Source: Anaerolineales bacterium
Lineage (GTDB): Bacteria > Chloroflexota > Anaerolineae > Anaerolineales > Villigracilaceae
DNA: 58,741 nt
NCBI GenBank assembly: GCA_013140605.1
Contig: JABFSL010000093.1
Location: forward strand, 1-58,741
Direction of reading: 5' to 3'
Shown: positions 20,141 to 20,930 of the stretch, piece by piece
How the letters are laid out: every line of letters starts with the position of its first letter
Position numbering within the stretch: position 1 is the first letter of the stretch
Notes under the pieces: model-generated
The model's database searches: none
What the model was told of the DNA's origin: nothing
The model's input: the letters and a program-made list of their open reading frames with translations, nothing else
Program-made: the position numbers and the translations under genes

Positions 20141-20144
<4 letters not shown>

Positions 20145-20212
20145 GGGCGGGGCTTGTCCCCGCCCGCTTGTTGGGCAAACACAAACAGGGCGACCACAAG
20201 GGTCGCCCCTAC
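20141..20212. repeat. GTAGGGGCG palindromic element
   Basis: Terminal inverted repeats GTAGGGGCG (20141-20149) and CGCCCCTAC (20204-20212) enclose two inner hairpins, GGGCGGGG/CCCCGCCC and GGCGACC/GGTCGCC. Noncoding. It overlaps the last codon and stop of mvaA and separates it from the MerB-like gene. Confidence 0.7.
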
Positions 20213-20222
20213 GAGAACAACC

Positions 20223-20930
20223 ATGAACGATACCCTCCTCTGGCAAACTCGTACTTTTGTCTACAGTCACTTCGCGGATACCACCCATCCGCCCAGTGTG
20301 GACGAAACCGCCGCGCACTTTAATATCACAACAAATGAAGCCAGCGGACTTTACAAGGAATTACACAATCGCCATGCGTTCTTCCTCGAACCAGAGACGT
20401 TGACCATCCGCATGGCAAATCCATTCTCTGGGATTCCCACAGACTTCAAAGTCCATGCGAATGGGAAAACCTATTTTGCCAACTGTGCCTGGGATATGCT
20501 CGGAATCCCCGCCGCACTGCACTGTGACGCGGTCATTGACGCAGTTTGCACAGAAAGCAATGAAACGGTGAAACTGGAAGTAAAAAACGGAAACATTTAT
20601 GCTCTCGGCGGCGTCCCCGCCGCCGAGGACGGCGATGGGAGCAGTTTATTAGTCCATTTCCCCCTGCCCTTCGCCCGCTGGTATGATGACCTGGTCTTTA
20701 CCTGAGCAAACATACTTCTCTTCCGGTCGGAAGAATGGATTGACAAATGGTGCAAGCGAAACAATCTCGAACGCGGCGAGCTCATCACAATCAACCAGGT
20801 TTGGGGGCTTTCCAAACTTTGGTATCACAACCGCCTGTCCATGGATTTTCACGGGCGAAGCAGCGAACAGGTTGCAGAAATTTTCAGGCAGGCTGGGTTG
20901 ACGTCAAAATTTTGGCGTGTAAAGCGGTAG
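20223..20930 (+). CDS. MerB-like (alkylmercury lyase family) protein, candidate selenoprotein with UGA at residue 161
   Basis: Read through the TGA at 20703-20705, the frame codes for 235 residues ending at TAG 20928. The N-terminal region (about 10-70) is a winged-helix domain like that of MerB. Residues 88-91, CAWD, match the catalytic Cys96-x-x-Asp99 of MerB. The TGA is codon 161, after DDLVFT and before ANILLFRSEEWIDKWC, the place where related proteins have the second catalytic Cys (Cys159 in MerB; family alignment from memory). Downstream codons keep frame for 74 sense codons with family-like sequence. A hairpin with a GGTC loop begins 13 nt after the TGA, as in bacterial SECIS elements. 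MerB cleaves carbon-mercury bonds; the substrate here is unknown. The alternatives are a 160-residue truncated protein or a nonsense pseudogene. No sel genes are in the window. Confidence 0.75.
20706..20741 (+). promoter_or_regulatory. Candidate bacterial SECIS element
   Basis: TCTTCC (20719-20724) pairs perfectly with GGAAGA (20729-20734) around the tetraloop GGTC (20725-20728). The loop starts 19 nt after the TGA; in E. coli fdhF the corresponding GGUC loop starts 18 nt after its UGA. Below the 6-bp stem, C20718 can bulge and T20717 pair with A20735, giving a 5'-side bulge as in the SelB-binding stem of E. coli. The lower helix is irregular. Binding by SelB is inferred. Confidence 0.65.

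Follow-up and report, generated by a model that had tools for sequence, protein, structure and literature searches.

The gene at positions 20223 to 20930 of the forward strand raises the question of whether a MerB-like protein is read through an in-frame TGA by insertion of selenocysteine (Sec) and, if so, what the resulting protein does. The gene lies in the window, that is, the whole 58,741-nucleotide stretch of Anaerolineales DNA that was analyzed, and would encode 235 amino acids with Sec at residue 161, ending at a TAG stop codon (20928 to 20930). The first-pass annotation had described this frame as having one TGA, at codon 161 (20703 to 20705), followed by 74 sense codons up to the TAG, and that description held. 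When Cys is substituted for Sec, the read-through product matches the Pfam MerB domain (PF03243) with 82.2 bits against a cut-off of 27, and the match covers residues 68 to 201, with the TGA included. This similarity to the MerB family is far beyond chance.

The predicted fold is likewise that of MerB. An AlphaFold2 model of the protein, based on a 38-sequence alignment and with Cys in place of Sec, has a pLDDT of 93.9 and a pTM of 0.91. Its best match in the PDB is MerB2 (5c17; Z score 18.1, rmsd 3.5 over 192 residues), entries for MerB itself reach a Z score of 14.4 at best (3f0o), and the next fold, LexA, matches the N-terminal winged helix only. Foldseek concurs in selecting 5c17 (E value, 3e-12).

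Two features of the local sequence deserve a separate mention. The stretch at 20610 to 20636 on the forward strand is a 27-nt repeat that forms a protein loop, with pLDDT below 50 at residues 131 to 135. The repeat has 7 copies in the genome (up to 3 mismatches allowed), compared with 0 for a reversed-pattern control, and different repeat-like inserts are seen at the same site of this variable loop in other genomes (G375, G218, and G270). Upstream, the region at 20143 to 20215, which separates the gene for HMG-CoA reductase from the start of the MerB-like gene, is GC-rich and palindrome-like and ends in GGTCGCCCCTACG, which is found nowhere else in the window.

To place the TGA among the MerB residues, we relied on homologs from the same order. 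A search with the PF03243 profile of 400 genomes of Anaerolineales returned matches in 58 of them; 40 match rows carried one TGA and 12 carried two, and no TAA or TAG was found inside any match row from these genomes. The alignment used here consists of 61 proteins from the order, 37 with one TGA, 12 with two, and 12 without any, after nine rows were dropped as fragments or as weak or second matches (G284a, G284b, G322:C104:10021-10266, G106, G087, G176:C235, G115:C29, G024:C398:56559, and G322:C180). The TGAs in this alignment are confined to two columns. The first corresponds to Cys96 of MerB and contains 12 Sec and 49 Cys residues; the second corresponds to Cys159 and contains 49 Sec and 12 Cys residues, with no other residue. 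The columns were anchored in two ways, by the presence in the alignment of a canonical MerB (its score of 258 bits exceeds the 193 that NCBI requires for MerB) and by a phmmer alignment with MerB2 (5c17), which puts residue 161 of the window protein opposite a Cys. Cys96, Asp99, and Cys159 are essential in MerB (PMC8261052).

The TGA of the window gene thus occupies the column of the catalytic Cys159, as had been proposed initially, and this part of the proposal held, with Cys in 12 of the 12 aligned homologs that lack a TGA. The claim that the remaining catalytic pair, C88-x-x-D91, is intact and matches Cys96 and Asp99 held as well: the codon for Cys88 (20484 to 20486, forward strand) is the equivalent of Cys96 and is invariant in alignment A2, and that for Asp91 (20493 to 20495, forward strand) aligns with Asp99. 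The Asp99 equivalent is retained in all 37 one-Sec proteins. The exceptions in this column are Cys in the genomes G010 and G037 and Glu in five two-Sec proteins (class A, see below). The codon for Cys109 (20547 to 20549, forward strand) falls in a column that we take to be that of MerB Cys117 from its position in a conserved block. Cys occupies this column in 6 of the 12 Cys-type proteins, in 24 of the 37 with one Sec, and in all 12 with two.

Three short TGA-bearing rows left outside the alignment (from G284, G322, and G106) show, by eye, the same local setting around the TGA. The row from G106 is apparently a decayed remnant, with its TGA in the same local sequence. The corresponding search at the phylum level gave 18 one-TGA rows, 7 two-TGA rows, 1 row with a TAG, and 1 with a TAA, the last being below the cut-off. 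Only part of the TGA rows from that search were examined; in the five newly seen one-TGA rows, the TGA is always on the Cys159 column. In G630, two adjoining MerB matches (L204 and G630:C30) were observed, one of them with an in-frame TAG; this is perhaps a decayed copy.

The same position was followed in a collection of genome contigs, which was scanned with the family alignment. The scan confirmed 339 loci. Among the 80 loci that were examined, mostly from Chloroflexota with a few from Gemmatimonadota, Actinomycetota, and Acidobacteriota, the site is a TGA in 79, and the 80th is truncated by the contig end before the site. These data bear on the possibility that the TGA either has been reassigned, for example, to Trp, or is a sequencing error. 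We found nothing in favor of this explanation. Reassignment is contradicted by the use of TGA as an ordinary stop codon, which terminates 18 of the 44 non-overlapping open reading frames of at least 200 amino acids in the window, and by the homologs without a TGA, which have Cys and never Trp at this site. As for an error at position 20703, which the first-pass annotation had named as something that would refute its proposal, it is very unlikely because the same TGA is present in 49 aligned proteins and in 79 of 80 contig loci, that is, in many separate assemblies. This explanation as a whole can be all but ruled out.

The genome that contains the window encodes the components of Sec decoding: SelA (555 bits), SelB (297 bits for a gene that the end of its contig truncates), and SelD (354 bits), each above its cut-off, as well as a tRNA-Sec (66 bits), which was confirmed by ARAGORN with the anticodon tca. 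The proposal of a selenoprotein, which the absence of these genes would have undermined, was therefore not refuted. The SelD gene of this genome, judging by its own in-frame TGA, itself encodes a selenoprotein. Across the order, SelA is a weak test because it is too common, being over the cut-off in 320 of the 400 genomes. Of the 46 genomes from which a TGA-bearing protein was extracted, 43 have a selA match with an E value of 1e-90 or better. Two others, G375 and G391, contain a SelB that exceeds the cut-off. The last, G002, has neither selA nor selB above the cut-off and is an exception to the pairing of the TGA with the Sec machinery.

The TGA is followed by a SECIS-type hairpin at 20719 to 20734 of the forward strand, with a 6-bp stem (20719 to 20724 paired with 20729 to 20734) and the loop GGUC (20725 to 20728). 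There are 19 nt between the TGA and the loop, and the 45 nt starting from the TGA fold with an energy of -8.1 kcal/mol. The published bSECIS model (PMC13188914, section 5) specifies a loop of 3 to 9 nt with a G in the first two positions, a stem of 4 to 16 bp, a spacing of 16 to 37 nt, and a minimum free energy of at most -7.5, and the window hairpin, with its 4-nt loop, satisfies it. A search of 20600 to 20900 against Rfam detected no SECIS family and gave one weak match below the gathering score. A pattern made of the TGA and the hairpin (up to 3 mismatches) occurs once in the whole window, with a match also in 6 of 100 shuffled sequences.

Conservation of the hairpin was evaluated in 92 unique one-TGA sequences out of 117. 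In this set, 534 of 552 stem cells are paired, versus 265 to 390 when the partners are slid, and the loop is GGUC in 63 sequences, AGUC in 23, and GUGA in 6. Compared with the bacterial SECIS element in general, the hairpin of this family is very uniform (a GGUC or AGUC loop in 86 of 92). Codon choice within it is equally restricted: Ser sites use TCG in 86 of 86 cases, compared with 56 of the 489 Ser codons that lie outside the hairpin in these genes from the order, and Arg sites use CGG in 63 of 69 cases versus 37 of 422 elsewhere. This choice of codons indicates that the RNA, and not the protein alone, is being maintained; no probability was attached to these counts, as the sequences are related. 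When the two-Sec proteins are included (95 distinct sequences), 97.5% of stem cells pair. Changes on both sides of the stem were found in 12 cells in 3 pairs, compared with a mean of 0.7 in shuffled data, and none of 500 shuffles gave a count as high. The number of further pair types in the hairpin was not above that in the shuffles. The covariation score of 0.138 is matched by stems slid by +1 or +3 (0.140 and 0.137), albeit with far fewer paired cells.

Where a protein has two Sec, its second TGA precedes a hairpin with this sequence motif, in which class B has switched from C-G to U-A, and the first TGA is followed, by eye, by its own stem in most folds. The fit is not perfect: two class B second-site folds reach only -5.7 kcal/mol, missing the energy criterion, and at some class A and B sites a different fold has the lowest energy.

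One objection is that the TGA is a real stop, so that the locus would be a truncated or split pseudogene or would contain a separate downstream frame. In favor of this explanation, there is only the codon itself and the few relatives that are fragments, such as the one from G106. Against it, in addition to the recurrence of the same TGA in the aligned proteins and contig loci and the lack of TAA or TAG in the matches from the order, stands the selection on the region past the codon. In one-TGA genes, the dN/dS ratio has a median of 0.18 for the part upstream of the TGA and of 0.22 for the part that follows the SECIS codons (57 sufficiently close pairs), and in the six pairs that involve the window gene, dN/dS after the TGA ranges from 0.11 to 0.32. 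As these low values show, the region 3' of the TGA is under purifying selection, and it is most likely translated and useful. Re-initiation of translation at codon +3 after the TGA is not a conserved option, as this codon is Met in only 51 of 92 sequences (Ile in 40 and Asn in 1). The sequence data as good as refute the real-stop explanation, and we regard it as very improbable.

A Cys form of the window subfamily was found in two genomes, G010 and G037. Neither selA nor selB was detected above the cut-off in these two draft genomes, which are 93 and 86% complete, so their absence may reflect, in part, incompleteness. A true selenoprotein would be expected to show this kind of Sec/Cys pairing, with the Cys form in genomes that have no selA or selB above the cut-off. 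In these Cys forms (L026 and L028), Cys replaces Asp99 (NCAWC) in addition to being present at the Sec column. In a quick tree of 139 proteins (131 of them different), a branch with a support of 79 has the 115 one-Sec rows all on the same side, and two-Sec classes A and B are placed separately. Since this is a quick tree only, with long-branch warnings, no evolutionary history was drawn from it. Taken by itself, the statement that the window gene encodes a selenoprotein is very probably correct; it rests on sequence comparison, with no protein or selenium data.

The window protein shares with MerB (PF03243; 3f0o and MerB2 5c17) the fold, the Pfam domain, and the equivalents of Cys96 and Asp99 but has Sec where MerB has Cys159. 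It scores only 31.9 bits with the NCBI MerB equivalog NF009710, under the cut-off of 193. A Sec-containing protein of this kind is not unprecedented. SaoL (NF040728), a MerB-like organometallic lyase of the SAO system, has one Sec, in the motif CU (PMC13188914, Table 1). The initial suggestion that a Sec-containing MerB would be a new or little-known enzyme form has accordingly been amended, as SaoL is already in print. The same May 2026 review lists a single MerB-like selenoprotein, SaoL, and no two-Sec MerB. We recognized no other report of a Sec-containing MerB in the open-access literature that was searched; the original SaoL paper was not covered, and an earlier mention there is possible. 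Nor did MerB turn up in a word search of the main text of three other papers on selenoproteins.

This raises the possibility, compatible with the interpretation preferred here, that the window protein belongs to the SaoL family as a divergent, and only in that sense new, member. Indeed, both proteins are MerB-like with one Sec, and NF040728 is the best NCBIfam match of the window protein. However, the score of this match is 45.5 bits, far below the SaoL cut-off of 140, and the alignment covers only profile positions 31 to 136 of 159, short of the Sec. The motif also differs, with Thr preceding the Sec (TU) in the window protein instead of the CU listed for SaoL. In 400 genomes of the phylum, NF040728 matched 49 at an E value of 0.001, with none over the cut-off, and a plasmid search returned 12 records, all with less than 60% identity and none annotated as SaoL. 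While Sec in a MerB-like protein is thus already known, assignment of the window protein to the SaoL family appears unlikely.

The genomic context provides some hints about the function. Neighbors of the window gene that were verified by tests include the genes for ribosomal protein S2, DnaA, a GAF histidine kinase, and HMG-CoA reductase; further neighbors are putative genes for HMG-CoA synthase and thiolase. A gene for HMG-CoA reductase is found near the MerB-like gene in 18 of 21 examined family loci (L086 is without it). Neighbors were also clustered for 54 of the 80 examined contig loci (L118 to L171), and in 13 of the 54, the gene is located between rpsB/tsf and pyrH (tsf and pyrH being putative labels), with one side fitting in 5 more. 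The 13 loci are L140, L146, L147, L149, L150, L155, L157, L160, L162, L165, L167, L168, and L171. The rpsB/tsf-pyrH cluster is usually a conserved translation operon.

MerB is usually, though not necessarily, encoded beside merA in a mer operon. The window gene is not: no mer genes were found among its neighbors, and no MerA above the cut-off was found in its genome. MerA was above the cut-off in 12 of 56 searched genomes, which were mostly MerB-bearing. Half of the Cys-type MerB genes (6 of 12; in G280, G337, G024, G176, G322, and G115) are located within a few kilobases of a MerA gene above the cut-off. In the genomes that have both such a MerA and an aligned Sec form (G117, G002, G227, G209, G337, and G198), the two genes are far apart or do not share a contig; the exception among Sec forms is the two-Sec protein of G322. 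Thus, while the label MerB-like is appropriate, mercury as the substrate of the window protein is unsupported by neighbors or by MerA. Housekeeping neighbors and the lack of MerA in the genome favor a chromosomal organometal lyase over a mer resistance gene, and we consider this assignment likely, with the activity and the substrate both being inferred.

The mechanism that we propose draws, beyond the Sec insertion, on what is generally known of MerB chemistry. Comparison of the sequences, without evidence from the protein itself, shows that SelB with Sec-tRNA-Sec, guided by the hairpin after the TGA, inserts Sec at position 161. From the alignment and the fold, Sec161 is inferred to replace Cys159 of MerB and, together with Cys88 and Asp91, to form the metal-binding catalytic site. 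By analogy with MerB, the thiolate/selenolate pair would bind the organometallic compound R-M, the selenolate would labilize the carbon-metal bond, and the leaving carbanion would receive a proton from Asp91 or from an exchanging thiol or selenol. Judging by its setting, the gene would be chromosomal and probably expressed constitutively, and its product would detoxify methylmercury or some other organometal(loid) without being part of a mobile mer cassette. The complete explanation, a selenoprotein of the MerB fold with Sec161 inserted, MerB-like organometal cleavage, and a role in chromosomal detoxification, is in our judgment likely, although the lyase activity and the substrate are inferred.

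The main competitor of this explanation accepts a true selenoprotein and assigns it a redox or metal-sequestering role in place of carbon-metal cleavage: Cys88 and Sec161 would serve to bind or buffer a soft metal, be it Hg(II) or a different one, or the protein would be a thiol/selenol oxidoreductase. This remains a possibility. It is consistent with the housekeeping setting without mer linkage and with the view that most uncharacterized selenoproteins are likely to be redox proteins (PMC13188914, section 7), and the two-Sec relatives, by inference, would bind Hg very tightly. However, the Asp99 equivalent, which would be needless for redox chemistry, is present in every one of the 37 one-Sec proteins, and the fold is still that of MerB. 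The organometal lyase remains the preferred reading.

The more surprising part of the finding is the two-Sec forms. In 12 aligned proteins from the order, TGA is found at both catalytic columns, those of Cys96 and Cys159. Class A (L072 to L076) consists of 5 proteins of about 520 amino acids with Glu at the Asp99 column; an AAA ATPase domain follows the MerB domain in both members that were scanned, and all five align end to end. A structural model of this AAA-fused class, built from five sequences, had a pLDDT of 52.5 and was set aside. Class B (L077 to L083) comprises 7 proteins of about 245 to 300 amino acids in which Asp99 is kept. The seven two-TGA rows of the phylum search include three from a single genome and one (from G194) that had already been counted.

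A thirteenth two-Sec protein, with Asp99 kept, is encoded in G322 (L216, in G322:C104:7500-13500) and lies outside the alignment. Roughly 0.5 kb away from its gene lies one for a flavin reductase, in which the codon for the first redox Cys is a TGA, giving GGTU in place of GGTC (GGTUVNEGC). The same contig also bears a Cys-type MerB gene and two MerA genes above the cut-off, all on one strand, so that at least one two-Sec relative is tied to mercury genes. The flavin reductase scores 424 against the NCBI dihydrolipoyl dehydrogenase cut-off of 408.8 and 365 against the MerA cut-off of 454, and GGTU flavoproteins are also found in G117, G045, and G115. The two-Sec MerB-like protein and the Sec-containing flavoprotein of G322 are a possible selenium-based MerB-MerA pair.

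A bolder reading would unite these proteins in a broad branch of MerB-fold selenoenzymes, one that does not appear under such a heading in the May 2026 review, spread over Chloroflexota and some other phyla, in which a selenolate replaces one or both catalytic thiolates, with the two-Sec forms included, and in which most one-Sec forms are chromosomal organometal lyases outside mer operons. We lean toward this joint claim, if only by a small margin.

These observations may affect the way in which MerB is counted in genomes. One survey, which covered 80,925 bacterial genomes, selected MerB homologs by Cys96, Asp99, Cys159, and Cys117, with variants allowed at positions 99 and 117 (PMC8261052). 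Proteins cut at a TGA before Cys159 would probably be excluded from such a survey, and gene callers that stop at TGA would miss these forms. The methylmercury-degrading potential of Chloroflexota may therefore be undercounted, which is an inference until activity is shown. Selenium is known to bind mercury more strongly than sulfur does, and the natural one-Sec, two-Sec, and Cys forms of this family could reveal whether a selenolate helps or harms the cleavage of the carbon-mercury bond.
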